From: Parasphingorhabdus litoris DSM 22379
Lineage (GTDB): Bacteria > Pseudomonadota > Alphaproteobacteria > Sphingomonadales > Sphingomonadaceae
Assembly (NCBI RefSeq): GCF_020906275.1
Contig: NZ_CP086727.1
Span: 2,666,001-2,730,000, forward strand
Reading direction: 5' to 3'
Length of the DNA stretch: 64,000 nt
In this document: positions 403-14,356 of the stretch, in pieces
Numbering within the stretch: position 1 is the stretch's first letter
Layout of the letters: each line of letters begins with the position of its first letter
Translations under genes and position numbers: made by a program
Notes under the pieces: generated by a model
What the model was told of the DNA's origin: nothing
Database searches by the model: none
What the model saw: only the letters and a program-made list of their open reading frames with translations

Positions 403-1215
403 CTAGCGAGCAACAATAAGCGGTATGGAGCATTCCCTGAAAAGACTTCGCGTAACACCGCCAAATAGAAATTCGCGCGCTCGGCTATGACCATAGGCGC
501 CCATCACCATATAGCTGGCATGGAGGGCTTTGGCCGAAGATTCGAGCACAGCTTCAACCGAAGGCTTTTTCGCTGACATGCTATGGATTTCGGAGGTAAT
601 CCCGTGACGTGAAAGATATTCCGATGCGCTCAGCGGAGGGAGATCGTGATCCTTATCTTCATCAACCGTGAGGATGTGAACAGCACTGGCCAGATGCAGC
701 ATGGGAACAGCGGCGCGCAGAGCATTGCCGGCCTCAAAGCTGCCGTTCCAAGCAACCACCGCAGCACCGGTGGCATCAAATTTTTTGGTATCGTCAGGCT
801 GGACCAGCGCCGGAACATGGGTGTTGAAAAGGACGTCGCCCAATATGCCCATTGGTAGAACATTGTCCTTGTCACCACTGGCAGAGCTTAAAACCATGAT
901 GTCGGCCAGAGCCGAGTTGCGGGCAAGCCCTCGGGCCGGACTGGCATTGACCTCTTCATAATGCCACGGCACATCTTCATCCGCCAATCGGCTTTCAATC
1001 TCGTTGCGTAGCCTTTGATCAGCCTCCCGTGTGAGCTTTGCGACATCATAGACCACTGACATGCCTGTTACCCCATCAAAGGCCATTTGGGGATTATAGG
1101 GATTGGCGCGCAGACAATGGAGGTGACCATTTGTTGCGCGGGTTACATCCAGCGCTGCCTGCAGCCTCGCCTCCAAACCAGTGTCATCATTGACGTAGAG
1201 CAGCACGGATTTCAT
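403..1215 (-). CDS. Universal stress protein (UspA family, two-domain)
   Basis: A 270-residue cytosolic protein. The C-terminal half holds the Usp nucleotide-loop signature MGAYGHSRAREFLFGG followed by VTRSLF and ends SIPLIVAR, as Usp domains do. The N-terminal half (MKSVLLYVNDDTG) looks like a second, degenerate Usp domain, giving the usual tandem length. The start chosen is ATG 1215, which has AGGAGA seven bases upstream; an upstream in-frame extension to 1260 lacks such a site. In the loop the last Gly is followed by Gly rather than Ser/Thr, so ATP binding is uncertain. It likely forms a stress operon with the metallo-hydrolase downstream. Confidence 0.85.
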   Translation of the reverse strand: MKSVLLYVNDDTGLEARLQAALDVTRATNGHLHCLRANPYNPQMAFDGVTGMSVVYDVAKLTREADQRLRNEIESRLADEDVPWHYEEVNASPARGLARNSALADIMVLSSASGDKDNVLPMGILGDVLFNTHVPALVQPDDTKKFDATGAAVVAWNGSFEAGNALRAAVPMLHLASAVHILTVDEDKDHDLPPLSASEYLSRHGITSEIHSMSAKKPSVEAVLESSAKALHASYMVMGAYGHSRAREFLFGGVTRSLFRECSIPLIVAR

Positions 1216-1328
1216 GAATTTTCTCCTATTTTTGATGAACTTCCGTATCGAAAGCATCACTAGGAGAAGTCTACGCCCATCACTTTTGGCTCTGTATAAG
1301 GGATGTTACGGAGTCACATTCGTCTGGT

Positions 1329-1910
1329 TCAATCACCATTGGCGCCATGGTCGCTTATCTTTTGCAGCCAGCGCTTGCGATGTTTAGGGCTGCCATCGAC
1401 ATTGCCGACAAGCGAAGTTGCAACTGGATCAATTCCGGACAATGCCAATATGTTTCGCTTAAAACTGCGCACGCTATGTGCGGCAAAATAGGCGCGATAA
1501 AATAGGGCAGGCATCCCCATGGTTACAATCAAACGTGCCGTGCGGCCACCGAGCAACTTCTTGGGCGCGCGCTTGCCTTCTTCGTAGCTTAGCGCAAACC
1601 CAGGACGGAACGCGTGCTCGATAAAGGCTTTTAAAAGAGCCGGCATGTCACCCATCCATAGAGGATAGAGAATGACGACATGCTGCGCCCATTTTATTGC
1701 TTCCTGCCCTGGCTTAACGTCGTCCGGTACAGGATGCTCCATCCATTGAGTCCGACTTTCCAATATCGGAATGTCTTTCCCTGCCAGTCGAATTTCTCGG
1801 ACTTCATGACCAGCTTTTTTGGCGGCCTCAGCATAAGCGGAAACCAAGGCGTGTCCGAAACGTGCGGGATCCGGATCAGGATGTGCATCAATAATCGCGA
1901 TACGTTTCAT
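1329..1910 (-). CDS. NAD(P)H-dependent oxidoreductase, flavodoxin-like fold (quinone reductase type)
   Basis: 193 residues beginning MKRIAIIDAHPDPDPARFGHA, the pattern of the KefF/MdaB/NQO1 family, where the first strand and following loop bind the FMN or FAD phosphate. VILYPLWMGDMPALLKAFIEH around residues 85-105 matches the family's YP-W-G-P-LK-D/E region. These enzymes pass two electrons from NAD(P)H to quinones or similar acceptors in the cytosol. AGGATGACAAG precedes the ATG. It follows the secreted protein gene at 1923-2555 by 12 bases in the same direction, so the two probably share a transcript. The physiological acceptor cannot be told from sequence. Confidence 0.85.
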   Translation of the reverse strand: MKRIAIIDAHPDPDPARFGHALVSAYAEAAKKAGHEVREIRLAGKDIPILESRTQWMEHPVPDDVKPGQEAIKWAQHVVILYPLWMGDMPALLKAFIEHAFRPGFALSYEEGKRAPKKLLGGRTARLIVTMGMPALFYRAYFAAHSVRSFKRNILALSGIDPVATSLVGNVDGSPKHRKRWLQKISDHGANGD

Positions 1911-1922
1911 CTTGTCATCCTG

Positions 1923-2555
1923 TCATTCTTGGTTCCCGTCGTTGTTTGATTCTGGGCTTTGCCATTGGAAAGCAGCGACCAACTCCATCAGGGCCTCTTG
2001 TGCAGGTACATCAAGCTCGTGCGCATAAGATGCGATCAAGCGGGCATCCCAATATCCATAGTCAATGGCGGTCAGGCTGACGTGCCACGGCACATTGTCT
2101 TTCTGCCCATCAAATATGCCTTGATAAGCAGAGAGATCATCTCGTCCCGAAATGAAATAATCGCCTTCTGATTCAACGGAAGCACTGGCATAATGCGACA
2201 TGACCGAGGGCTTGATAATCCGATAATGATCACGAGCGGTCAGGTCCTCAAGATGGACCACTGTAATGTCCACCGCAATTAACTGGTCTCCAATGGTGCG
2301 TTCATAACGAATTTGAAAATTGTCACCGGAAAAGTCAGTGGTCATCTCGCACAAGCGTCTGAACCCGGCCACTTCGGCTGGAAAAACGAAACCGCTATCT
2401 TTGTGCACTATGGCTGAGCCACCCTTATAGGGCGCGAAGGGATCGAAAAGTGGTTCAGAGCCGATTACACATTCCGCTGCAGCCGGACCGCTGGTGAAGC
2501 ATAGCAGTCCGGCACCAATCAAAAGGGCGCGCGACAATTTGGATGGAGAAAGCAT
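1923..2555 (-). CDS. Secreted protein of unknown function
   Basis: 210 residues with a clear Sec signal peptide: basic start MLSPSKLSR, hydrophobic core ALLIGAGLLCFTSG and a probable cleavage site after PAAA-EC at about residue 27. The mature part has two cysteines and alternating strands but no motif that I recognise. The ATG at 2555 has AGGAAA just upstream. It lies 12 bases after the next gene's stop (2568) and 12 before the flavoprotein, in a three-gene minus-strand run. A periplasmic location is inferred; function unknown. Confidence 0.75.
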   Translation of the reverse strand: MLSPSKLSRALLIGAGLLCFTSGPAAAECVIGSEPLFDPFAPYKGGSAIVHKDSGFVFPAEVAGFRRLCEMTTDFSGDNFQIRYERTIGDQLIAVDITVVHLEDLTARDHYRIIKPSVMSHYASASVESEGDYFISGRDDLSAYQGIFDGQKDNVPWHVSLTAIDYGYWDARLIASYAHELDVPAQEALMELVAAFQWQSPESNNDGNQE

Positions 2556-2567
2556 CGGGATTTCCTT

Positions 2568-2927
2568 TCATTCCTGACAGCGGATCACCCTGAACGGTAG
2601 CTCGCTGCCATCAGCTTCGGTGATCGTCAGATACTCACCGGCCTTTATCGGATGACTTTGCAATCCGAATATTACCTCGTCATCGTCATCGCCGACTTTG
2701 TAGGAGAAGGCCCAGCCTTTTTCGGTGGTAATCACCACGCCATTCTGGTCGGGTTCTCCGGGCCAGAAACGTCGCACTACCGGACGCTTTTCCGCTTCAC
2801 GGAGCGCTTTCGGTTCAATGAAGCCGGCATCATCCAGGGGAACGCGAAAGACATAAGCATGAGCTGATGATCCATTGGGATGCTCAGCGGTTCGGGCCAA
2901 TTCAAGGCGTATTGTTTTCCAAGTCAT
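2568..2927 (-). CDS. Conserved hypothetical protein, 119 aa
   Basis: A small soluble acidic protein beginning MTWKTIRLELARTAEHPNGS. It contains RPVVRRFWPGEPDQ and YLTITEADG near the C terminus and has no signal peptide or membrane segment. I do not recognise a named domain. The ATG at 2927 is preferred; a TTG two codons upstream (2933) is possible and neither has a strong ribosome site. It is first in the run with the secreted protein and flavoprotein genes. A perfect 16-bp palindrome lies 36 bases upstream and may regulate the run. Confidence 0.65.
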   Translation of the reverse strand: MTWKTIRLELARTAEHPNGSSAHAYVFRVPLDDAGFIEPKALREAEKRPVVRRFWPGEPDQNGVVITTEKGWAFSYKVGDDDDEVIFGLQSHPIKAGEYLTITEADGSELPFRVIRCQE

Positions 2928-2962
2928 TCCCAATATTTGGCTTCAGAAACGGGACGGCGCGA

Positions 2963-2978
2963 TACGCAATATTGCGTA
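2963..2978. promoter_or_regulatory. 16-bp perfect palindrome upstream of the 2568-2927 gene
   Basis: TACGCAATATTGCGTA is identical on both strands and sits 36 bases before the ATG at 2927, inside the 295-base gap that separates divergent genes. Such a dyad is typical of a dimeric repressor or activator site, but no regulator is encoded next to it. Nothing else recognisable lies in 2928-3222 except the strong ribosome site of the following gene. Confidence 0.45.
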
Positions 2979-3222
2979 GGTGGAAAGTGTCGATGTGGGT
3001 ATGCCGGCCTCGCCAGAATGAAATCAACAAAGGTGATTTCACTATGTTGTCGATTGCCAGCGGGTAGATGGAATTGGGGGAATTGCAACGCACATCTCAT
3101 CGCCTGTTGTGCAGTCGGTGCTTGCCATTTTCGATGCAGTGGACAGCTTGGCGTCGTTGATGATATCTTAATCGGAAGAAAAACTGCAAAATCAAAACAT
3201 CTACTCATCGGGGGAGGAGCTT

Positions 3223-3957
3223 TTGCATTCAAGGCGGTCCTATCTATTCTTTGCGATGATGGGAGTGCTGTTTCTGGCGGTCGCTGTGGTTGGATTTGCC
3301 CCATCATTCCTCTTTCCGATCCTGAGCGGCAATTTCGATTTTCCACTTGCCGTTTTTATCCATGCCGCGATCATGTTCAGTTGGCTTGGACTGTTCATCT
3401 TGCAGGCCGTGCTAGCGAGCAGAGGCCCCAGCCGAATACACAAATATCTGGGAACAGCATCGCTCTTTTTATTCATATTGATCATGATTTCCGGCTTTAC
3501 GCTGTCCGTTGCAAACTTCTTGCAAGACTTGCCGCAACCGGTCGAGGCGCGACTGGACAGCATCTTTTTTCTGCAACTCTGGACGGTCGTGTTGATACCT
3601 CTATTCTATTGGCTTGGATATCGAAAGCGGCGCCAGTCACCCGATGAACATATGCGTTACATGTTGCTGCTAACGTTCTTTTTAATTGAAGCGGCGGCCA
3701 GCCGGATAACCTTTCTGCCGGGAATGTTGGATGATGCGACGTTCATCTACGCACAATATATTTATCTCGATCTGATGTTGGTCCCGCTTTTCATTTTTGA
3801 CTGGCAACAATTGGGTCGCTTGTCCAAAGCAACAATCATCGGGTGCAGCATTTTGCTCTTCTATCAATGCACCGCCTTGGTAATGTGGGACAATGAGCTG
3901 TGGCTCAAAACGACCGATATTCTCGACAACTGGTTTCGGACATACTGGCCAATATAG
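3223..3957 (+). CDS. Integral membrane protein, about six to seven TM segments
   Basis: 244 residues, dominated by hydrophobic helices (LFFAMMGVLFLAVAVVGFA, AIMFSWLGLFILQAVL, ASLFLFILIMISGF, LQLWTVVLIPLFYWLG, MLLLTFFLIEAA, IIGCSILLFYQCTALVMW). Between helices are short polar loops such as SRGPSRIHKYLG, a pattern shared with DUF2306-type and related membrane proteins. The start is TTG at 3223: GGGGAGGAG lies five bases upstream, a strong ribosome site with no ATG at the right distance. Function unknown. It stands alone between divergent or convergent neighbours; just past its end is the acyl-CoA synthetase remnant on the other strand. Confidence 0.7.
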   Translation: MHSRRSYLFFAMMGVLFLAVAVVGFAPSFLFPILSGNFDFPLAVFIHAAIMFSWLGLFILQAVLASRGPSRIHKYLGTASLFLFILIMISGFTLSVANFLQDLPQPVEARLDSIFFLQLWTVVLIPLFYWLGYRKRRQSPDEHMRYMLLLTFFLIEAAASRITFLPGMLDDATFIYAQYIYLDLMLVPLFIFDWQQLGRLSKATIIGCSILLFYQCTALVMWDNELWLKTTDILDNWFRTYWPI

Positions 3958-3990
3958 CCTTGCCACGGCCTGCTCACGCGTATTCATTTT

Positions 3991-4106
3991 TCACAGAGGT
4001 AATAAACGAAGATCGCTGACTTCAGCGAGGCTTTTGCCCCCCGATAATCTTTACCTTCCTCGCGAAGAGACTGTTTCAGGGTTTTGCCGGGTGCTGTGTG
4101 AGATGG
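3991..4106 (-). pseudogene. Remnant of an acyl-CoA synthetase C terminus
   Basis: Reading the minus strand from 4106 to a TGA at 3991 gives SHTAPGKTLKQSLREEGKDY and then RGAKASLKS. This aligns with the end of the intact acyl-CoA synthetase at 12749-14356, [20 protein letters not shown] and QLKSLA, including the conserved Gly-Lys of the AMP-binding C-terminal domain. DNA identity is obvious between 4058-4104 and 12791-12837. No start and no upstream domains remain, so this is the last 38 codons of a deleted gene. It is different enough from the intact copy to be an old paralog rather than a recent duplication. Confidence 0.7.
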
Positions 4107-4142
4107 AAAGTGTCTGAGTGCATATGTCGATACGCACAACTC

Positions 4143-5465
4143 TTACAGTTCAGCAGCCACATCGCTCATCGCCACCGCAGCCCGATCAATAGCCTCGTCA
4201 ATCAGAGCCTCGTCCATGATGGTTGACATGGCCATAAGGCCGCGGCCTGCAATGAATAAGCCTTGATTAAGCGCCGCAATATGGAAACGGCTCATGGCAG
4301 CCTGGTCTTCTCTCATAAGGGCTGCTTGGGGTATTTCGTTTGAAAAAAAGACGTTCATTAACGATCCAACATGACTAACACAAAATGGTAGATTTACCTT
4401 TTGTGCAGCTGCGGCCAGGCCATTTTTTAAGCGTTCGGCAAGCTTTTCCATCTCATCAATTGACTTTTGAGTCAGATCGCGAACAGCTACTACACCTGCA
4501 GCCGTAGTAACCGGATTTCCATTGAATGTCCCTGAATGATAGGTCCGCAAGTCTGATGATTGGAACACGTCCATCAAATCGTCCGGACCACCTACTGCAC
4601 CAACCGGAAATCCTCCACCAATCAATTTACCAAGCATTGTAAGATCTGCTTCGATACCCAATGCTTTTTGACGGCCTCCTTCATGCAAGCGAAACGTAAC
4701 AACTTCGTCCAAGATGAATAAAGCGCCAGCCTTATGTGCTGCCTCTTTTACTCGCAGCAAAAACTCTCGATCAGCAGCGATGATGCCAGCCGAGCCCAAA
4801 ACGGGCTCCAGGAAAACAGCGGCAATTTCTTCGCCATGATGTTCTAGAATATTTTCAAAACTCTCGGCATTGTTGTATTCTCCAAGATAGGTTGTCGCCG
4901 GATAGTCATGATTGAAAGAGCCGGTTTCAGTCTCGGTCAGACTGCCGTGATAGCCAAATCTGGACATCAATATCTTGTGGCGCTTGGTTACGGCACGGGC
5001 GATGGACAAGGCAAGATTGCTGGCCTCCGTACCCGAGTTTGTAAACCGCACTTTATCAATGGCAGGTATCCGCTCAACCAATAGCTCAGCAAGGTCAATT
5101 TGATGCTCATTTTGGGCGGACCAAACAGTACCGTTTTTAATCTGACGATCCACTGTTTCCAAAATAGGGGGATAGGCATGGCCGTGAACCAATGAAGTGT
5201 AATTGTTGGTAAAATCGATATATCGACGACCATCAACATCTGTGAGATGAGCACCATCAGCACTGGCTATCGCGATTGGATGAGGAGACCAATATGATAC
5301 TTGTCTCGAGTTGCCACCAGCCAGGGCTTGCTCGGCCCGCAAATGCAGCACTTCGCTGCCTTGCGTAGACTGCCTATATGCATCAACAATGGGGCTACGC
5401 GGAATGGTAAGGTCGAATCCCGAGCCTTTTTCGGGGCGTGGGTAGGTCAGTTGTTGAACAGACAT
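4143..5465 (-). CDS. Class III PLP-dependent aminotransferase (glutamate-1-semialdehyde aminomutase-like)
   Basis: 440 residues. ALFILDEVVTFRLHEGG carries the Asp that contacts the pyridine nitrogen of PLP, and LTMLGKLIGGGFPVGAVGG contains the Schiff-base Lys; RFTNSGTEASNLALSIAR is the phosphate-binding region. Family members move amino groups between amino acids or amines and keto acids, or isomerise glutamate-1-semialdehyde. It is not likely to be the housekeeping hemL, since it follows a TonB receptor by 32 bases in what looks like one transcript. AGGAGA precedes the ATG. Substrate unknown; context suggests it handles an imported compound. Confidence 0.85.
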   Translation of the reverse strand: MSVQQLTYPRPEKGSGFDLTIPRSPIVDAYRQSTQGSEVLHLRAEQALAGGNSRQVSYWSPHPIAIASADGAHLTDVDGRRYIDFTNNYTSLVHGHAYPPILETVDRQIKNGTVWSAQNEHQIDLAELLVERIPAIDKVRFTNSGTEASNLALSIARAVTKRHKILMSRFGYHGSLTETETGSFNHDYPATTYLGEYNNAESFENILEHHGEEIAAVFLEPVLGSAGIIAADREFLLRVKEAAHKAGALFILDEVVTFRLHEGGRQKALGIEADLTMLGKLIGGGFPVGAVGGPDDLMDVFQSSDLRTYHSGTFNGNPVTTAAGVVAVRDLTQKSIDEMEKLAERLKNGLAAAAQKVNLPFCVSHVGSLMNVFFSNEIPQAALMREDQAAMSRFHIAALNQGLFIAGRGLMAMSTIMDEALIDEAIDRAAVAMSDVAAEL

Positions 5466-5497
5466 AGCGAGTCTCCTGGAAGGTGATTGAAAGCGGG

Positions 5498-7840
5498 TTA
5501 GAAATTGGCTTCTAACTGGACCACAAAAGTACGCGGCGGATTGACAAATGCTCCGTGCGTTCCGCTAAAAACCGGCACATCAAAACTATAGATTTTAGCG
5601 CGCTTGTTGCCGAGGTTTTTGGCAATGACCGATAGTTCCAAACCACCGTCCATGAATGTGGCCCCAGCCCTCAGATCCACAATCGAATAACTGCTCTGAC
5701 GGTCGGCCGGGTCCAAATCGAGTTGATAAAATTGCGCTCCGGTAAAAGTCGCTTCCAGACGCGTGAAGAGTTCAACATCACCGATGGGCTTGTTCAATCC
5801 CAGAAATATGTTTCCGCTCCACTTTGGCGCAAATAGCGTTGGGCGCCCAGAAAGATCTTGCACTCCATCGGTCCCGGCGATTGTTGGCGCATTTTCGAAT
5901 GAACGGAATTTGGAGTCGAGATAGGCAACCGCGCCACCAATCTCGAACAGTTCAGAGGGTGACCAGACACCATCGAGCTCTATGCCCTGAGCCCGCGACT
6001 CCGCTGCATTGCCGACATCAAAAGTCAATCCATTAAATGCCGTGACTTGCAGGTTATTGTAGTCGGTTCGAAATGCAGCTGCATTCAAACGTAATGTATC
6101 GTTGAACAGTGATAATTTGGTGCCAACTTCGTAGGTCAGCGCTGTTTCATTATCGAAACTGAAAACGGAGTTGGGGCTGGTAATCTGTTCGCTGAATCCA
6201 CCAGATTTGAACCCGCGTGCAATACTGGCGTAAACGAGACCGTCATCCAAAACATCGACTTCGATCGATAGACTTGGTGACAGGTCTGAATAGCTATCAT
6301 TTTCGGCTTTCTGAGGTGTAGGAACAAGCCCTAATGCAGTGGAAGTTTGCACTTCCGGAGTCGCTGCCCCCAATGCATCAGCTGCAGATTGAGATAGAAA
6401 CGGTAAGATATCGTAACGTACCCGCGCATCCTTTTCTTCGTAAGAATAACGTAACCCAGCTCGCAATCGAGCCGACGGAGAAACCGACCATATCAATTGC
6501 CCAAAAGCCGCGAATGCGCGGACATCTTGGCTGAACGTGCGAAATGTTGAAAAATCAGTAAATCCCAACAAAGAGCCAGCCACATGCTCATTCCTTGTAA
6601 TTTCGAAACTCTGATTTTGCGCGTATAGGCCAGCAAGATATTCGACCGTATCGTTTCCTTCTGAAGCAACGCGTAATTCCTGGCTTATCTGCGAGAATTC
6701 TCCGCCTGGCGTGTCTACAACGATAAGAGGCAAGGGCCCATAATCGGAATCAAATACCCGATCCATGTCGAACGAAGAATAGCTTGTAACCGAGGTAATT
6801 GTGGCTTCATCAAGCTCATAGTCTATTGAGACAACCGCGTTAAACGTCTCTGTGTTGTCGCGTTCATCATTATAACGCGCAGGTGCTACCGGCAATCCGA
6901 AGGCTGCATTATTCCGAAATGTCAGCAGACTGCGTTGACTGTCGATACCGCCACCAAACGACGGATCGTTCCGGGTCGGTGTCAGTGCGCCTAGTGTCTC
7001 AGCGCCTGGCCCAAGAATACTGATCTGGCTGTTTACGCCAGATTGATCAAAAGCCCCACCTTCAATCTTGAGGTAGACTGTGGTTCTGTCTGTGGCATCC
7101 CATTCTAAACTTCCGCGCAATAACCAAAGGTCCGTCGACACCTCCTCCTCATTGGATGCCGAGTTCGTAAAAAAGCCGTCTGACCAGCCCACTTTGCCGG
7201 TTAAACGCACTCGCACATTGTCGCCGACCGGTCCCGACACCGCGCCTTCAAAGGATCGCAACTCGGTCTCACTTTCATATCTTGCGAGGGCAAAGCCTTC
7301 AAAGTTGTAGCTAGGTCTAGTGCTTGTAATGTTAATTGCACCCGCTGTTGTATTTTTGCCAAGCACAACACCTTGTGGTCCTTTTAACACCTCCACATTC
7401 TCAATATCTAAAAACGGCGCAAGGAACTGTCTGCTTCGGCCGAGATAAACACCATCGACAAAGAGGCCGACAGACTGTTCAAACCCCTCGTTAACGCCGG
7501 AACCAGCGCCGCGCATAAAAATAAAATTATTTTCAGCACCTTGTTGAATGGTAACGTTCGGCAGTCGCTTGCTCAGTTCATCAAGGCTAGCGATCGCGCC
7601 TTCATTGAGGGCCTCTCCCGAAACCACAGAGATTGAAGCTGGAATATCCTCAAGTGTTTCGGCGCGTTTAAATGCGGTGACAACAATTTCATTGCTGCGT
7701 TGAGATTCATCAACAGCCTGCTGATCATCGATATCTTGAGCCTGCGCCGCTGCCCCGAGCAGAGCACCGCTTAAACAAACCGCAAAATATGTTCCGCCCA
7801 TCAAAAATGTTTTGAATTTTCGGTATCCCTTGGCGTGCAC
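5498..7840 (-). CDS. TonB-dependent outer-membrane receptor
   Basis: 780 residues. A signal peptide (FLMGGTYFAVCLSGALLGAAAQAQ) is followed by a TonB-box-like NEIVVTAFKRAETLEDIPASI, the plug domain (GVYLGRSRQFLAPFLDIENVEVLKGPQGVVLGKNTTAGAI region) and a long beta-barrel ending PRTFVVQLEANF with terminal Phe. This is the sphingomonad catabolic-type receptor rather than a classical siderophore receptor, but ligand cannot be read. The start is GTG 7840 with GGGGAGA six bases upstream. The promoter region is shared with the divergent NmrA-like gene and contains a GTAC-centred operator candidate over the -10. The aminotransferase gene follows. Confidence 0.92.
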   Translation of the reverse strand: MHAKGYRKFKTFLMGGTYFAVCLSGALLGAAAQAQDIDDQQAVDESQRSNEIVVTAFKRAETLEDIPASISVVSGEALNEGAIASLDELSKRLPNVTIQQGAENNFIFMRGAGSGVNEGFEQSVGLFVDGVYLGRSRQFLAPFLDIENVEVLKGPQGVVLGKNTTAGAINITSTRPSYNFEGFALARYESETELRSFEGAVSGPVGDNVRVRLTGKVGWSDGFFTNSASNEEEVSTDLWLLRGSLEWDATDRTTVYLKIEGGAFDQSGVNSQISILGPGAETLGALTPTRNDPSFGGGIDSQRSLLTFRNNAAFGLPVAPARYNDERDNTETFNAVVSIDYELDEATITSVTSYSSFDMDRVFDSDYGPLPLIVVDTPGGEFSQISQELRVASEGNDTVEYLAGLYAQNQSFEITRNEHVAGSLLGFTDFSTFRTFSQDVRAFAAFGQLIWSVSPSARLRAGLRYSYEEKDARVRYDILPFLSQSAADALGAATPEVQTSTALGLVPTPQKAENDSYSDLSPSLSIEVDVLDDGLVYASIARGFKSGGFSEQITSPNSVFSFDNETALTYEVGTKLSLFNDTLRLNAAAFRTDYNNLQVTAFNGLTFDVGNAAESRAQGIELDGVWSPSELFEIGGAVAYLDSKFRSFENAPTIAGTDGVQDLSGRPTLFAPKWSGNIFLGLNKPIGDVELFTRLEATFTGAQFYQLDLDPADRQSSYSIVDLRAGATFMDGGLELSVIAKNLGNKRAKIYSFDVPVFSGTHGAFVNPPRTFVVQLEANF

Positions 7841-7892
7841 AGAATTTCTCCCCTCAAAATTATTTTCGGTGGCTTAGCTGCCATCTCATAAA

Positions 7893-8000
7893 GGTACATA
7901 TGTTCTTTTTTATGCTTGCGTCAATCCTATAAATGTACTTTAATCGCGCTATAAACCAAAATTTCCAGACTTTTCTGCATTTATTAGTATTTACGTACCT
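7893..8000. promoter_or_regulatory. Divergent promoter with GTAC-type operator sites
   Basis: For the receptor (minus), TTGACG at 7924-7919 is followed after 17 bases by ATATGT at 7901-7896. For the NmrA-like gene (plus), TTGCGT at 7916-7921 is followed after 17 bases by TTTAAT at 7939-7944. The two -35 boxes interlock. Three GTAC-centred sites lie here: minus-strand ATGTACCTTTA covering the receptor -10 (GGTACATATGTTCT on plus, 7893-7906), ATGTACTTTAA at 7933-7943 over the other -10, and ACGTACCTAAA at 7993-8003 near the ribosome site. They resemble the dyads at 10210 and 11598. Confidence 0.55.
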
Positions 8001-8014
8001 AAAAGGAGAATCCT

Positions 8015-8881
8015 ATGAAGAACATTTTGCTGATTGGCGGCCACGGCATGCTTGGCCTACCCGTAGCGCGCCAACTGAAACATGACGGCTTTTCAGTGAG
8101 CTTGCTCGCACGATCGCCAGACGCTGTGCGTTCAAAACTCGGAGATGAATTTGACGTTCTAAAAGGGGATGTGGAAGATAAGGGTTCACTAGAGTCCATC
8201 TTCCCTGGGTTCGACGGCGTACATGTCAATCTCTCTGGAGGCCCTCTGCCCGAAGATTACGACCGAATCGAACATCTTGGCACAGCGAACGTTGCGGCAG
8301 CTGCCAAGCCGTCAGGCATACAACGAATTACCTATCTCACTGGTACGTCATCAGGCCCTGATCATTCCTACTTCTACGCGACCGCAGCAAAATGGGCTGG
8401 CGAACAAGCTGTCCATCGTGCCGGGATTCCCTACACGATATTTCGCGCATCATGGTTTATGGAATCTCTGCCGCTTTTCGCTACCGAGGACGGCGTCAAT
8501 CTAGTGGGTGATCATATCAACCCGATACATTGGCTAAGCGCCAGCGACTATGCAGCAATGGTTTCAAAAGCCTATCAAAGCAAAGCTGCGGAGAACCAGA
8601 CATATTATATATACGGCCCCAAAGGAATCTCGATTTCGGACGCGATCAAACGGTATCAGGCAGAAAACAGACCTGAACTTCCACTTGTTCGAACCTCAGC
8701 TTCGGATATGATTTCCTACGCTCAAAGCGTCAACGATCATGCCACGGAAGACTTTGCCCGGCTGATGAACTTTTTTGAGACATTTATTGAGGACAAGGAT
8801 CCTGAACCTGCGAACATGCTCCTAGGGGCACCTACCGTTACTCTTGACCAATGGCTCAATGAACGCCAATCAACTGAGTGA
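8015..8881 (+). CDS. NmrA-like NAD(P)-binding protein / atypical SDR
   Basis: 288 residues opening MKNILLIGGHGMLGLPVAR, the Gly-rich Rossmann dinucleotide loop (GGHGMLG) of atypical short-chain dehydrogenases. RITYLTGTSSG and YFYATAAKWAGEQAV occupy the positions of the catalytic strand and Tyr/Lys helix, here with AAKWAGE. Such proteins are NAD(P)H-dependent reductases or redox-sensing regulators. AAAGGAG lies seven bases before ATG. It is the first plus-strand gene of the 8-12.5 kb cluster, sharing a control region with the TonB receptor and followed by two TetR genes. Substrate unknown. Confidence 0.82.
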   Translation: MKNILLIGGHGMLGLPVARQLKHDGFSVSLLARSPDAVRSKLGDEFDVLKGDVEDKGSLESIFPGFDGVHVNLSGGPLPEDYDRIEHLGTANVAAAAKPSGIQRITYLTGTSSGPDHSYFYATAAKWAGEQAVHRAGIPYTIFRASWFMESLPLFATEDGVNLVGDHINPIHWLSASDYAAMVSKAYQSKAAENQTYYIYGPKGISISDAIKRYQAENRPELPLVRTSASDMISYAQSVNDHATEDFARLMNFFETFIEDKDPEPANMLLGAPTVTLDQWLNERQSTE

Positions 8882-8941
8882 TGAACAGAGCGTTCGGCAC
8901 AAGCCATAGCGCTCAGGCTCAAAAGCAGGTCAACAGGCGCT

Positions 8942-9535
8942 ATGGAAGCTCGACAGTCCAGATCAAAAAATACGGTAGAACGCATATTGGCTTCCGTATT
9001 GGTTATCTATGCCGAGAAAGGTTTGAAAGCGGTCACCCATCGCGCTGTGGCAGAACATGCAGGGGTTTCAGTATCGTCCACAACACGGTTTTTTAAATCA
9101 AAACCCGATCTCATCAGCAAAGCCTACCAATGGGGTGTCGAGAAAGCCAGGGCACGCTATGCATCGACGGCAGAGGAAATGGATTTCGGTGACAAAGCTG
9201 AGCTTGTTCAATATTGCAGAAGCGTTCTTGGCGCGGATTTGAACGATCACGCTGTTTCAAATCTGGCGTGGTATCATTTTTTAATTGAATCAACTCGCGA
9301 TCCTTCACTTCGCCCTATAACTGTTCAGAGCTTTTCGGATATGAGCCTCTTTTGGCGCGACCTTGCAAGACGTTCGGGAATTGAAGATGAAACCAGCATT
9401 CAAACGCTTCTCGATTATCTGATCGGTGAATATTATTTGGTTTTCGCTGCATCTGGATCTCGATCGGACGAAGTTGGACGGGCTCAACGACGAGTTCGTC
9501 GTGTGGCTCAATCCATTCAAGCATCAACTTCATGA
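8942..9535 (+). CDS. TetR family transcriptional regulator (first of a tandem pair)
   Basis: 197 residues. The N-terminal helix-turn-helix is clear: ERILASVLVIYAEKGLKAVT then HRAVAEHAGVSVSSTTRFFKSKPDL, ending in the F/Y-F-x-S/N-K signature of TetR proteins. The C-terminal ligand domain is divergent, as usual. ATG 8942 follows the NmrA-like stop by 60 bases. Its stop overlaps the next TetR gene's start by four bases (ATGA), implying translational coupling. It is a good candidate to bind the GTAC dyads in this block, possibly together with its neighbour as a heterodimer, which is inference. Confidence 0.88.
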   Translation: MEARQSRSKNTVERILASVLVIYAEKGLKAVTHRAVAEHAGVSVSSTTRFFKSKPDLISKAYQWGVEKARARYASTAEEMDFGDKAELVQYCRSVLGADLNDHAVSNLAWYHFLIESTRDPSLRPITVQSFSDMSLFWRDLARRSGIEDETSIQTLLDYLIGEYYLVFAASGSRSDEVGRAQRRVRRVAQSIQASTS

Positions 9536-10140
9536 CCAAGAAAGCTACCACTCAACAAAATAGGGGTATTGCGACACGTGAAGCGATAATAGCCGGTGCA
9601 CTGGAGTTGATCGGAAGCGTCGGTCTGGCGGAGTTAAATCATCGATCTGTGGCGAAAACAGCCAAAGTCAGCTTGGCGCGCACGACCTACTATTTTGAGT
9701 CGCGCGATGATATTATTGTCGCCGCCCAATCACGCCTGGCTGAACTGGATGCCAAGCGCTTCGCTGCAGCGGTTGACAAAATAGGTGTTAGAACGGCGAC
9801 TAGAGAAGGCGTCATTCGCGCCGCTATGGAAGTTTTGCTAGCAGACCTCGGAGCGCATCGCCCGCAAACAACGGCATATCTCGAACTCGGCCTTGAGGCA
9901 GCGCGCTCTTCTGCTGCGCAACAATTATTTGATACGATGTTTTCCCATCGCCTCGACTACTTTAGGCGACTTTTTGAATGCGCAGGCATAAGTGATCCTG
10001 AAGAACGGGCACGAATTTATCTCAGCTGCTATCTCGGACTCGTGTTACAAGAGCTGTCCTGCTCCAATAAGATCCCTGATGTCAGTTCCACCGAACATCG
10101 CATGGCCGCCTATTTGGACATGGCTTTGCGCCTCGACTGA
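9532..10140 (+). CDS. TetR family transcriptional regulator (second of a tandem pair)
   Basis: 202 residues with a TetR DNA-binding domain: REAIIAGALELIGSVGLAEL then NHRSVAKTAKVSLARTTYYFESRDD. The recognition region resembles that of the preceding regulator (HRAVAEHAGVS against HRSVAKTAKVS, and TTRFF against TTYYF), so the two look like paralogs. Start ATG 9532 overlaps the upstream stop. The 106-base gap downstream holds the transporter promoter and a large inverted repeat that is a probable target. Effector ligand unknown; a local-repressor role follows from position. Confidence 0.88.
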   Translation: MTKKATTQQNRGIATREAIIAGALELIGSVGLAELNHRSVAKTAKVSLARTTYYFESRDDIIVAAQSRLAELDAKRFAAAVDKIGVRTATREGVIRAAMEVLLADLGAHRPQTTAYLELGLEAARSSAAQQLFDTMFSHRLDYFRRLFECAGISDPEERARIYLSCYLGLVLQELSCSNKIPDVSSTEHRMAAYLDMALRLD

Positions 10141-10192
10141 GTTTCATCATTTAAAACAATGCGTCGTGATCGATTTTGGTAAAATTGCTCGC

Positions 10193-10240
10193 TTGACTTC
10201 GCTATTATAGGTACTAATGTACCTATAATAGCGAAGGGAG
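10193..10240 (+). promoter_or_regulatory. Promoter with 40-bp perfect inverted repeat before the transporter
   Basis: Positions 10197-10214 and 10219-10236 are perfectly complementary 18-base arms around the 4-base centre TAAT. The middle is AGGTACTAATGTACCT. A -35-like TTGACT at 10193-10198 overlaps the left edge, and a -10 would fall about 10215-10221, inside the dyad; TATAAT also occurs at 10224-10229. The ribosome site GGGAG (10236-10240) abuts the right arm. The core lies 17 bases from the -35, nearly the same spacing as the receptor promoter (18), which supports a common repressor. As RNA it would also form a strong hairpin beside the ribosome site. Confidence 0.7.
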
Positions 10241-10246
10241 TGTCCT

Positions 10247-11122
10247 GTGATTGAGAATATTATTCTACCCTTGGGGATATTTTTCCTCATGTTCGGATTG
10301 GGCCTCTCTTTACGTTGGGAAGATTTTTCGCAGATCGCAAAATTTCCTGGCGGTTATATTGCAGGGCTGTTTGGCATGTTAATCGCGGTTCCAGCATTTG
10401 GTTTACTGCTGGTAATCGCATTCGATGTCCCGCCCGTTTTGGCCATGGGCGTGATGCTTATTGCCACGGCACCAGGCGGGCTGTTCTCAAATCTGATTAC
10501 CCATATGGGTGGCGGAAATCTTGCACTATCCATTGCACTGACCACGACGCTAAGTATCATCTATATTGGCGCCATCCCGTTTGTTGCGGGTCTGCTCTAC
10601 ATGTATTTTATCGGTGAAACAGCTGCTATCGAAGCCCCTGTTTCAGCAATTGCGTTGCCACTTTTCTTCATCACTTTGCTACCCCTGACATTGGGTATGT
10701 TTGTCACACGTTTTGCTGAGAATTTTGCGAAAAGGATCCAAAACTGGCTTCGCAAAGCTTCTGCGATCTTTATCTTCGCTGCGTTTCTGGCTCTGGCATT
10801 TGATCAGCGTGACAGCCTGATTACCTCTCTCCAAACTGTTCTACTGCCGGTGCTTTTACTCAATTTAGGGGCTATCACTATTGGTTTTCTAGTGACACGG
10901 TTATCGCGGTTGAACCGCGCTGATACGATAGCGGTAACGATCGAGCACTCCGTGCGCCAAGAAGGAACAGCAATCTACATTGCAGCAACCGTATTAGGGT
11001 CTGCCCAGATGGCCCTACCCCTCATCTTAAATGGCTGCTTCGCATTATCGCTGTCATTTTTATTCACCTATTGGATCAATAAACGCTCGGCCAAAAGAAT
11101 AGCCGTACAGCAAGGAGTTTAA
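10247..11122 (+). CDS. Bile acid:sodium symporter (BASS/SBF) family transporter
   Basis: 291 residues with about nine hydrophobic segments. The early GLGLSLRWEDF and later MLIATAPGGLFSNLITHMGGGNLALSIALTT segments are the hallmark SBF region with the Pro-Gly crossover and sodium-site polar residues; SVRQEGTAIYIAATVLG near the end is the second crossover. BASS carriers import organic anions (bile acids, pyruvate, pantothenate and others) by sodium symport across the inner membrane. The start is GTG 10247 with GGGAG six bases upstream. It heads a three-gene run under the large inverted repeat. The cargo is unknown; with the TonB receptor it could complete an uptake route. Confidence 0.85.
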   Translation: MIENIILPLGIFFLMFGLGLSLRWEDFSQIAKFPGGYIAGLFGMLIAVPAFGLLLVIAFDVPPVLAMGVMLIATAPGGLFSNLITHMGGGNLALSIALTTTLSIIYIGAIPFVAGLLYMYFIGETAAIEAPVSAIALPLFFITLLPLTLGMFVTRFAENFAKRIQNWLRKASAIFIFAAFLALAFDQRDSLITSLQTVLLPVLLLNLGAITIGFLVTRLSRLNRADTIAVTIEHSVRQEGTAIYIAATVLGSAQMALPLILNGCFALSLSFLFTYWINKRSAKRIAVQQGV

Positions 11123-11124
11123 CC

Positions 11125-11595
11125 ATGAAATCGATATTGACGACCACCGCCATACTGCTGGCTGCCATGTCGGCAGGCCAGGCCAAGGGAAAAGAATTTT
11201 CCGGAACAATTGGTCTTCAAGCAACCGTTTCAGAAACAATCAAGATGCCAAGTAATCGCGGGCGATTCAATACGCGGTTTCTTGGGGCAGGCGGATTGTC
11301 ATTCGCTGACGAGACTGATCTGAAGCTGTTCACATTTTCTTGCATAGGACAAGACACCACGCAAGACGGTTCAGTTGTTGAACTAAAGGCGGACTGTGAG
11401 CTGCGATCAAACGAAACCTCAGCCATCTTCGCGAGTTTCGATCCGGCATTGTCCCGATTCATTGTTACCGGCGGCGAAGGTGACTGGGCCGGTGCAGCGG
11501 GCTTTTTCACAGCCGAATACAAAGCCACCCCGCCTTCGTCCGACGGCCATCTGATGTTTTTTTCGACGCTTAAGGGTGAAATCACACAGCCTTAA
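11125..11595 (+). CDS. Secreted protein, possibly AOC-barrel-like
   Basis: 156 residues. MKSILTTTAILLAAMSAGQAKG is a Sec signal peptide. The mature part has a pattern of beta strands ending FIVTGGEGDWAGAAGFFTAEY, which recalls the G-x-G-x-F/W-x-G-A-x-G turn of allene-oxide-cyclase-like or dirigent-type barrels; that similarity is by eye and weak. Two cysteines could pair in the periplasm. The ATG is two bases after the transporter stop, so it is certainly co-transcribed. A periplasmic binding or cyclase role for the cluster's substrate is speculation. Confidence 0.7.
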   Translation: MKSILTTTAILLAAMSAGQAKGKEFSGTIGLQATVSETIKMPSNRGRFNTRFLGAGGLSFADETDLKLFTFSCIGQDTTQDGSVVELKADCELRSNETSAIFASFDPALSRFIVTGGEGDWAGAAGFFTAEYKATPPSSDGHLMFFSTLKGEITQP

Positions 11596-11596
11596 T

Positions 11597-11612
11597 TGGT
11601 GCATTAGTACCC
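11597..11612. promoter_or_regulatory. Third GTAC-type operator candidate, upstream of second NmrA-like gene
   Basis: TGGTGCATTAGTACCC lies just after the stop of the secreted protein gene. Its reverse complement contains GGTACTAATGCACC, which matches 13 of 14 bases of GGTACTAATGTACC at 10210-10223. No convincing -35 lies at the matching distance, so it may serve as a secondary or roadblock site inside the operon. Confidence 0.5.
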
Positions 11613-11626
11613 TATCGGAGTTATGT

Positions 11627-12460
11627 ATGTATTTGATTACCGGTGCCACAGGAAACGTTGGCAGTATGATTGTTCATCAAATGATCCAAAAGGACCAAAA
11701 GGTGCGCGCGTTCGTCCGTGATCCATCAAAAGCAAGAGCAGAGTTGGGCAACAAAGTTGAATTGTTCAGCGGAAACTTTGAAGATATCGAAACATTCAGG
11801 GCGGCGGCTTTGGGTATTGAGGGTTTGTTTCTTGTTACAACGGAAAGCGACAGCTTTCTCGAAGCACTCCCTGGCCTGCTCCAAACTGCGAACGACACAG
11901 GAGTTACTAACATCGTGGCGCTTTCAGCCACAGCCGATGCAGATTCTCCAGCGTTCTTCCTGCGCCGCCACGCGGCGATTGATGCCATTATTCGACACTA
12001 TACACCTCATGCGACAATCTTGCATCCGGATTGGTTCATGCAAAATTTTCTCGCTTGGATGACATCGAGAAATATGGTTTTTCCGGCCGGAAGGGGAAAA
12101 ACAAGCTTTGTTGATGTGCATGATGTAGCTGAGATAGCGATCACCTGTCTCAAGGATGCAAGACATGCGGGCTATTTATATCGTCCCACCGGTCCAGAAG
12201 CCATGTCTTTTGAGAATGTAGCAAGCCGAATCAGCCAAACGCTTGGTCGGTCATTCTTGTATCATGACATAAGCCCGACCGTGTTCGCTGAACAACTGCA
12301 AGCAACGGGCATGGAAAAATGGCGCGCGGATATGCAGGCCGAAATGACCTTTGCGTTGAGAGCAGGTGTAATCTCACCACCGACAAATGATGTAATGTTT
12401 GTTCTTGGCCGCGAACCTAGATCATTGGATGATTTTCTCTCGTCTAACACCGAAGCTTGA
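11627..12460 (+). CDS. NmrA-like NAD(P)-binding protein
   Basis: 277 residues starting MYLITGATGNVGSMIVHQMI with a canonical GATGNVG dinucleotide loop, then KVRAFVRDPSKA, whose Arg suggests NADP(H). The remainder follows the NmrA/QOR2-type atypical SDR layout (ATILHPDWFMQNF around residue 130 is characteristic). It differs from the 8015 gene at most positions, so they are distant relatives. ATG 11627 has GGAG six bases upstream; a longer in-frame reading would overlap the preceding gene. Last gene of the regulated block. Likely reduces a carbonyl, alkene or quinone; substrate unknown. Confidence 0.82.
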   Translation: MYLITGATGNVGSMIVHQMIQKDQKVRAFVRDPSKARAELGNKVELFSGNFEDIETFRAAALGIEGLFLVTTESDSFLEALPGLLQTANDTGVTNIVALSATADADSPAFFLRRHAAIDAIIRHYTPHATILHPDWFMQNFLAWMTSRNMVFPAGRGKTSFVDVHDVAEIAITCLKDARHAGYLYRPTGPEAMSFENVASRISQTLGRSFLYHDISPTVFAEQLQATGMEKWRADMQAEMTFALRAGVISPPTNDVMFVLGREPRSLDDFLSSNTEA

Positions 12461-12748
12461 CACAAGAGACAGCCTTTTCTTCTTTCGGAAGAAATGCCTT
12501 TCCTACACTATCGCTGCCATGCCATATTTCATGCTGACTCACTCGTCCTGGATTCAGCAACTTTAGAGTTTTGTTTCAGAGATCGGCAATTTTTTAAGAT
12601 CGATTCTGTGTCGAACCTGTATAATCTTTATCAAACAGCAGCCGAATATGAACGAATCACGCAGCTAAGACACTTGCGCTGATCGTCGCATTTTCAACCG
12701 CACTTATCCAGCGGCCGGCCAAGTTTTGAACAGATTGAAGCCTTATGC
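12461..12748. other. Intergenic region between convergent genes
   Basis: The 288 bases separate the NmrA-like gene from the end of the acyl-CoA synthetase gene. I see no RNA gene, no clear terminator and no protein-like reading frame with a start signal. It marks the boundary between the accessory block and core genes. Confidence 0.5.
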
Positions 12749-14356
12749 TCAGGCGTCAGCAAGGCTCTTGAGCTGATAGTCCTTATACTCGTCGCGAAGA
12801 GCCCGTTTCAGGATCTTGCCGGTTGCTGTGTGCGGCAGTTCATCAATGAACTTCACTTCATCGGGCAGCCACCATTTGGCCACTTTGTCAGTCAGATAGG
12901 CCAGCACTTCTTCTTGGGTCACATCCGCGTCCGGTTTCTTTACGATCAATAGCAAAGGCCGCTCGTCCCATTTCGGATGATAGACGCCAACAGCCGCTGC
13001 TTCGGCGACACCGGGACAGCCAACTGCTGCATTTTCCAGCTCGATCGAGCTGATCCATTCACCGCCCGACTTGATGACATCCTTTGCCCGATCGGTAATC
13101 TGCATTGTGCCATCCGGATGAAGGACCGCAACATCTCCGGTATCGAACCACAGATCATCTTCGACCGCTTCTTCATCGGCCCGGTAATAACGCTGGATAA
13201 TCCAGGGGCCTCGGATCTCAAGCGTACCGCTGGATTCACCATCGCGGGGCAGTACATTACCTTCGTCATCCACGACGCGCAATTCAACGCCAAAGGGCGG
13301 CCGGCCCTGCTTGCAAATCACATCGACCTGCTCGTCAAAGCTCAGATCATCCCAATTGGCTGGAAGCGAGCCAGCCGTACCGATGGGCGAGGTTTCCGTC
13401 ATGCCCCACGCATGTGCCACCCGCATGCCGTTTTTCATCAACCGCTCGATCATCGAACGCGGACAGGCCGAACCACCAATAGTGATCACCTGCAACTTGC
13501 CATAGTCGCCGCCATTGGCGTCCATGTCAGCAAACATTGACAGCCAGACCGTCGGCACACCGGCGCTATGGGTCACGCCTTCTTCGCGGATCAGTTTCCA
13601 CAAAACCGGTGCCTCGTTGCTAGCCGAAAAGACCATTTTTGCGCCGACCGCCGCACAAGCAAAGGGCAGCCCCCAGGCATTGGCGTGGAACATCGGCACG
13701 ATAGGTAACATCACGGATCGGGTGGCAAGATCCATAATGTCCGGCTGCACTTCGGTCAGGGCATGCAGAACATTGGAGCGATGCTCATAAAGCACACCCT
13801 TGGGATTGCCAGTGGTGCCGCTGGTATAACATAGACCGCAAGGATCATTCTCATCCACATCAACCCAGTCAAAATCACCATCTTCGGCATCGACCAGTTC
13901 TCGGAAAGTCGGATAGTCGCCTTTCTCTCCATCAAACTGGATATAATGCTCGACTGTCTTCAACTGAGGCTTCAGCATTTCGATGATTGGCGTGAACATC
14001 TTGTCGAACAGGAGGACACGGTCTTCGGCATGATTGATGATGTAAACCAGCTGCTCTTCAAACAGGCGCGGGTTCACGGTGTGGAGAATTCCCCCAATGC
14101 CAGCCGAACCGTACCAGCTGATCAGATGGTGCGCGTGATTCATGGCAATCGTTGCAATCCGGTCGCCCTTTTTCATGCCGAGCCGTTGCAGCGCTTGCGA
14201 GAATTTTCGCGCATCCTGGCCAATCTCACCCCAATTGGTGCGGGTTAGCGAACCATCGGCCCAATAGCTTACGATCTCGCGCGATGTATGCTCGCGCGCA
14301 GCATGATCAATCAAGTTGGTGATTTTGAGCGCACTGCCCTGCATAGCTCCAGCCAT
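12749..14356 (-). CDS. Fatty acyl-CoA synthetase (AMP-forming)
   Basis: 535 residues. [19 protein letters not shown] is the ATP/AMP P-loop-like motif of ANL enzymes, [10 protein letters not shown] the A5 motif, [15 protein letters not shown] the A7 motif, and [15 protein letters not shown] ends with the catalytic Lys of the mobile C-terminal domain. The enzyme activates a carboxylic acid to its CoA thioester. Length and sequence resemble medium/long-chain fatty acid ligases of sphingomonads. GGAGAG precedes ATG. It lies 45 bases after dnaE on the same strand. A decayed relative survives at 3991-4106. Confidence 0.9.

Follow-up and report, generated by a model that had tools for sequence, protein, structure and literature searches.

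A stretch of 64,000 nucleotides of the Parasphingorhabdus litoris DSM 22379 genome (contig NZ_CP086727.1, positions 2,666,001 to 2,730,000; hereafter the window, in whose numbering all coordinates are given) contains a gene island that codes for a TonB-dependent receptor, an aminotransferase, two NmrA-like proteins (NmrA1 and NmrA2), two TetR-family regulators (TetR1 and TetR2), a bile acid:sodium symporter family (BASS) transporter and a protein of 156 amino acids (aa), p156, and in which a palindromic element of the GGTAC-N4-GTACC type recurs between the genes. The question raised by this locus is whether genes of such different kinds are controlled together and, if they are, what controls them. 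The initial annotation proposed that one local regulon links the receptor and aminotransferase genes with the NmrA/TetR/BASS cluster. Our analysis leads to the same conclusion on stronger grounds: a site stands at the front of every probable transcription unit, with no exact copy of the common pattern elsewhere in the genome, and it is likely that the four sites, A to D, are operators of one local, self-contained regulon under the control of TetR1 and/or TetR2.

Site A, the proposed primary operator, has the sequence CTTCGCTATTATAGGTAC-TAAT-GTACCTATAATAGCGAAG. It was recovered by an inverted-repeat search, in which its arms of 18 bases stand against arms of 12 in the runner-up perfect inverted repeat of the window (loops of up to 12 bases). 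Its core, GGTACTAATGTACC, is present exactly as first reported, the reverse complement of GGTGCATTAGTACC matches this core at 13/14 positions, and the looser copy GGTACATATGTTCT at 7893-7906 has 2 mismatches to GGTAC-N4-GTACC. The half-site that the initial annotation placed at 7993 is real but is not a half: it belongs to a full degenerate site, C, which is identical to the palindrome core of site A at 18/24 positions (B, on the other strand, at 16/24, and D at 15/22). Another half-site, claimed for 7933, was not among the best matches listed in a half-site scan. By eye, ATGTACTTTAATCGCG at 7933-7948 resembles the palindrome arm ATGTACCTATAATAGCG minus one base, and it may represent an extra half-site between C and D.

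The part conserved in B, C and D corresponds approximately to the inner 20-24 bases of the site A palindrome only. An intergenic inverted repeat of about 15-30 base pairs (bp) next to a regulator or target gene is found in full at A and in the form of degenerate repeats at B, C and D. Sites A, B and C lie directly upstream of Shine-Dalgarno sequences; the centres of B and C are both 22.5 nt from the ATG, and the centre of D is 59.5 nt from the receptor start codon.

The lesser sites are in statistical excess. When cores of the site A palindrome of varied length were matched against the window, the best non-self matches of the 20-base core were at 11595-11614 (15/20), 7983-8002 (14) and 7890-7909 (14), the next one scoring 13, and the 22-base core again returned sites B, C and D (16, 15 and 15; next 14). 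All three top matches fall in intergenic gaps of the cluster, before NmrA2, NmrA1 and the TonB receptor gene. As a control, both the arms of the palindrome and its centre were shuffled 2000 times with composition and symmetry kept, and a shuffled palindrome was scored as good as the real one if it had equally good matches at two separate places in the receptor-NmrA1 gap and at one in the NmrA2 gap. The result was 0/2000 for the 20-, 22- and 24-base queries and also 0 with the three scores summed. At up to 2 mismatches, bare GGTAC-N4-GTACC occurs 12 times in the window against 8.67 expected, which is no enrichment (15/100 shuffles gave at least 12), and therefore the motif as it was initially written would not convince; the signal emerges only once the motif centre and the A+T-rich flanks are included.

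The sites are also confined to the cluster. With at most 1 mismatch, the bare motif occurs at 23 places in the 3.61-Mb genome, 3 of them exact. By mechanical calling of open reading frames (ORFs) of at least 100 aa, 12 of the 15 places that were examined lie within such a frame, among them the two exact ones other than A; the 3 outside are site A and two others. A pattern derived from sites A-D, WAWWRGWRYNNNNGTACCYWWW, matches the genome exactly at these four sites only (at A on both strands), and 3 of its 4 further places with 1 mismatch fall within ORFs of this size. Genome-wide scatter, which would speak against the proposed regulon, is thus not what we find. The pattern had 0 matches in 31 congeners, while a reversed control pattern had 11 in the 32 genomes of the genus, and in an order sample of 395 other genomes, which includes five congeners, it had 9 matches in 8 genomes, never two per contig, with 8/9 inside ORFs of at least 100 aa. 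A repeat family or a mobile palindrome was rejected as the source of the sites since the pattern has no other exact match in the genome. The sequence ATAGGTAC-N4-GTACCTAT is present in 16 stretches of viral contigs, a result that we put down to chance, given 16 fixed bases.

It is extremely improbable that the sites owe their likeness to chance or composition, that is, to A+T-rich gaps that happen to lie near an unrelated palindrome. The gaps are A+T-rich indeed, the lack of enrichment of the bare motif at up to 2 mismatches would agree with such an origin, and common ancestry of the NmrA1 and NmrA2 leaders might apply. Yet none of the composition-matched shuffled palindromes did as well as the real one, and among the 23 places of the bare motif in the genome a TAAT/ATTA centre is found only in A and B, which are 1.4 kb apart. 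Likeness of the leaders by descent is unlikely because NmrA1 and NmrA2 are just 20% identical.

Table 1. Coordinates of the sites and genes of the island.
Feature	Position	Strand	Remarks
Site A	10197..10236	none	between TetR2 and BASS; 18+4+18 bp perfect palindrome, core GGTACTAATGTACC at 10210-10223; proposed primary operator
Site B	11593..11616	+	31-bp gap before NmrA2; overlaps final bases of the p156 ORF; core GGTGCATTAGTACC at 11598-11611
Site C	7981..8004	+	directly before the NmrA1 Shine-Dalgarno sequence; TTATTAGTATTTACGTACCTAAAA
Site D	7889..7910	-	upstream of the TonB receptor gene
Class III aminotransferase	4143..5465	-	second gene of the receptor unit; family and PDB-sequence matches
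TonB-dependent receptor	5498..7840	-	GTG start; first gene of the receptor unit
NmrA1	8015..8881	+	NmrA-like NAD(P)-binding protein
TetR1	8942..9535	+	TetR/AcrR regulator, TetR_C_31 domain
TetR2	9532..10140	+	TetR1 paralogue; start overlaps the TetR1 stop (ATGA)
BASS-family transporter	10247..11122	+	GTG start
p156 (156-aa protein)	11125..11595	+	signal-peptide-like N-terminus (by eye), no family match
NmrA2	11627..12460	+	NmrA-like; relative of YtfG and triphenylmethane reductase

The gaps between the genes make three transcription units probable: receptor-aminotransferase, NmrA1-TetR1-TetR2 and BASS-p156-NmrA2. Sites D, C and A stand at the fronts of these three, respectively, and B stands in front of NmrA2, so that a site without any other exact match in the genome is common to every unit as drawn from the gene layout. 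The ORF list offers an earlier GTG start for NmrA2 (11576), which would place site B inside the ORF; the start at 11627 is favoured by a glycine-rich nucleotide-binding motif right after the ATG and by a Shine-Dalgarno sequence, both seen by eye. The 156-aa protein, for which NCBIfam and Pfam gave no match and PDB nothing better than E 0.21, is probably exported. The best PDB matches of the aminotransferase are a class III aminotransferase and beta-transaminases, followed by GSA aminomutases, and together with the gene neighbours of a 59% identical relative they suggest a beta-amino acid as the substrate. This relative (genome G246 of the order sample, locus L097 8352-14366) adjoins ORFs that resemble an ammonia lyase/aminomutase, a thiolase and a CoA ligase (named by eye), and as a whole its locus suggests a cluster for the degradation of beta-aromatic amino acids. 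No paper that combines a beta-phenylalanine aminotransferase with TonB turned up in the literature search; a precedent may still exist.

Which protein may read the sites? As the initial annotation pointed out, a pair of TetR genes is encoded in the middle of the cluster, and TetR1 and TetR2 do lie among the sites. The two proteins are 28% identical over 148 residues. The TetR_N domain (PF00440, cut-off 24 bits) is found in TetR1 with 33.2 bits, along with TetR-family PDB relatives, while TetR2 scores 22.5 bits, slightly under the cut-off, and its N-terminus aligns with TetR-family PDB relatives and with TetR1. Both exceed the cut-off of 27.4 bits for TetR_C_31 (PF17940), a ligand-binding C-terminal domain of a known TetR type, TetR1 with 28.7 and TetR2 with 43.4 bits; the C-terminal domain and the PDB relatives place TetR2 in the TetR family. 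A single-sequence structure model of TetR2 was discarded (mean pLDDT 43.7). A protein search that reaches only relatives with common 5-residue words returned TetR1 itself only and, for TetR2, itself and 13 proteins at 28-39% identity. At E 1e-10 the 31 congeners contain no match to either protein, the only second match of each being the other, and a family sample gave no match to TetR2 in its 198 other genomes (E 1e-25). The sites and the TetR genes are together in one genome and are both missing from the 31 congeners.

The dyad symmetry of the sites suits a dimeric helix-turn-helix protein and, taken together with the TetR genes among the sites, the site that fronts the TetR unit and the closeness to Shine-Dalgarno sequences, it suggests an autoregulated repressor that blocks transcription. 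In the mechanism that we propose, the NmrA1-TetR1-TetR2 unit would make a homodimer, or a pair of homodimers, of TetR1 and/or TetR2, and these dimers would bind palindromes of the GGTAC-N4-GTACC type that overlap the promoter or the 5' end of the three units. Site D would serve receptor-aminotransferase, site C would serve NmrA1-TetR1-TetR2 (autoregulation), and site A would serve BASS-p156-NmrA2, with B as an internal site before NmrA2. The bound repressor would block RNA polymerase until freed by a small ligand, probably a compound taken up by the receptor or its product, perhaps an amino compound, upon which uptake, transamination, reduction and membrane transport would begin together.

The promoter geometry that the initial annotation described for the receptor and the transporter is the weak part of its proposal. 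TTGAC is present at 10193 (+) and, by its 5' end, at 7924 (-), its onset being 23.5 bases from the centre of A and 24.5 bases from the centre of D, so that a -10 element would fall within the site. The hexamers that a spacer of 17-18 bases picks out inside the sites (AATGTA; ATATGT or TATGTA) are poor -10 sequences, and no TTGAC at plausible spacing was seen by eye for B and C. A consensus promoter scan of 3900-12800 (8 found, 10.0 expected) placed no promoter-like sequence at any of the four sites.

This last result is one of several that weigh against the proposed regulon. Symmetric positions number 5 of 12 in B, 7 in C and 9 in D, against 10 in A, and B, C and D agree pairwise at just 11-13 of 24 positions. 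The well-kept half, GTACC, is on the start-codon side in each of B, C and D, an orientation that a symmetric operator neither requires nor explains. Site B lies within a probable operon and has no visible promoter. The ranking of the matches is also less clean at other query lengths: with 16- and 18-base cores a place at 43.8 kb ties with site D, with the 24-base core C scores 18 and B 16 but D, at 15, does not rise above four other places, and with cores of 24 bases or more D is at the background level or tied with a place at 18.5 kb. The four-site pattern finds A-D by construction, and its evidence is the absence of further matches only. Finally, the samples searched yielded no orthologous cluster in which conservation of the sites could show, and, because the cluster as a whole is missing in the congeners (the receptor, too, has no close relative there), the joint absence of sites and TetR genes counts as one event.

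Sites B, C and D each pair a good half, GTACC, with a poor one, as might be expected if two different DNA-reading heads were at work, with TetR1 and TetR2 joined in a heterodimer or acting one after the other at the four sites. The ATGA overlap of the two genes, the 28% identity and the common C-terminal domain family would all be in line with this. Nevertheless, we consider such an arrangement unlikely: the strongest site, A, is a perfect palindrome and is best explained by a homodimer, and tandem TetR genes may equally respond to two ligands separately. No direct precedent for paired or heterodimeric TetR regulators was among the papers listed in the literature search, although one may still exist. 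There is likewise only a small chance that the translationally coupled, diverged paralogues form one heteromeric reader of the 40-bp palindrome and of its three half-degenerate versions, and that the island moved between genomes sealed, with its reader and its operators.

The constant orientation of GTACC toward the start codon could also be a trait of an RNA element, i.e., of a hairpin in the 5' leader of BASS that makes the message more stable or regulates its translation and that has weaker counterparts upstream of NmrA1 and NmrA2. The hairpin predicted for site A is very strong (-35.1 and -34.8 kcal/mol, z -7.8 and -8.2), the motif lies directly before Shine-Dalgarno sequences with B and C at the same distance from the ATG, a G-U pair would form at the sole mismatched position of the B core, and the predicted fold has a 5-bp hairpin at B. 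Such an element is quite improbable all the same. The RNA at B, C and D folds no better than shuffles (z -0.15, +0.67 and +0.32), site D is far from its start codon, and transcription from the proposed -35 would begin inside the palindrome, leaving a message without the full hairpin. Since folding is significant at A only, what the sites have in common is a DNA sequence. The palindrome was also rejected as an intrinsic terminator of TetR2, as it has no T-run and is missing from the terminator list.

We connect the TetR proteins with the sites by inference only, and TetR regulators can act at a distance; the sites might therefore be read by a regulator encoded elsewhere in the genome, with TetR1 and TetR2 controlling something else. 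This seems very unlikely to us: the pattern has no other exact match in the genome and none in the 31 congeners, as expected if the reader and the sites arrived together, and the TetR genes, situated between the sites, are just as private. Local control by TetR1 and/or TetR2 remains the reading that we prefer.

Relatives of the island genes elsewhere are distant and dispersed. The BASS query gave one locus, 31% identical, in a scan of named genomes and 5 records (27-34%) in a plasmid collection; its protein relatives include one at 57%, the next being at 40-41%. In the order sample, 26 of the 395 other genomes match BASS at E 1e-30, with at most 40% identity. No NmrA, TetR or 156-aa relative was present at E 1e-6 in 19 of the 29 other BASS-match neighbourhoods and in the BASS contig of the named genomes, a search that distant TetR genes would escape. 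Distant relatives of both the receptor and the aminotransferase are found in two BASS neighbourhoods (28% and 23% in L077, 29% and 27% in L092), and the aminotransferase alone (25%) in another, L074. The aminotransferase has matches at E 1e-70 in 3/395 genomes (G246, 59%; G242, 38%; G108, 36%): the G246 locus is without other cluster genes, in G242 the aminotransferase adjoins a 23% receptor in the same order, and in G108 a 23% receptor is about 3.5 kb away. None of the three contains the exact site pattern, which means that receptor-aminotransferase pairs elsewhere do without the motif. The receptor has matches at E 1e-60 in 12 of the 31 congeners, all 30-34% identical.

To the right of the island lies an acyl-CoA ligase gene (12749-14356) that is present in 32/32 genus genomes. 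Its downstream flank was taken from 13 of the 31 congeners, 12 of which could be used since L123 ends at a contig end, and these 12 flanks contain no island gene at E 1e-8, a receptor match of 26% identity in L127 being the only exception. Also missing from the congener flanks are the genes at 403-3957, to the left of the island, and therefore the left border is not fixed. About 80 bases on the left of the cluster (4022-4101) align with the 3' end of this ligase gene (12756-12833; 61/79 columns identical, counted by eye). They could be left over from a second ligase copy or record the arrival of the island. Third-position G+C is mostly lower in the island genes (4143-12460; 0.38-0.52) than in four genes on the right (0.53-0.62), ranges that nearly touch, and the low values are in keeping with acquisition. 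The best reading of the island is that it was acquired and is self-regulated.

How does this arrangement compare with known systems? According to passages of PMC4482099, palindromic operators are typical of TetR-family regulators, with a dimer of E. coli TetR on 15 bp and a QacR tetramer on a 28-bp palindrome; passages of PMC4150764 describe CprB and QacR as binding cooperatively as a dimer of dimers, with QacR regulating the multidrug transporter gene qacA. The island resembles QacR-qacA of Staphylococcus aureus and CprB in the regulator family and in a palindromic operator long enough for more than one dimer; by its length, the 40-bp palindrome could seat two dimers. It differs from both in that this palindrome is perfect, in the four sites spread over 3.7 kb and the two tandem TetR genes, and in the probable targets, which here are the receptor, aminotransferase and NmrA genes. 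Like classical TetR-type local regulation, it combines a regulator gene that adjoins or belongs to the controlled unit with a palindromic site in an intergenic gap. Here, however, three units and one internal gene have the site, and the regulators are distal genes of one probable controlled unit, whereas most of those in the relevant passages of PMC4482099 are divergent to a neighbour. Among sphingomonads, PheR of Sphingobium sp. SHPJ-2 is presented in passages of PMC13273656 as a repressor that links catabolic genes with TonB-dependent uptake, as proposed here; as described there, it belongs to the IclR family, has another operator, and its effect on the receptor comes from transcriptomes of a deletion mutant and not from shared local sites. 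By analogy, the working of the island would be that of a local regulon of the TetR type. The arrangement is a familiar one; what is unusual is the perfect 40-bp palindrome, together with a coupled TetR pair for which no close relatives were found.

With four sites, two candidate readers and a pattern that has no other exact match in the genome, the island is a small and sharply bounded test system. Its TonB receptor, aminotransferase, two NmrA proteins, BASS transporter and 156-aa protein likely form one functional unit, for which a single substrate is predicted.

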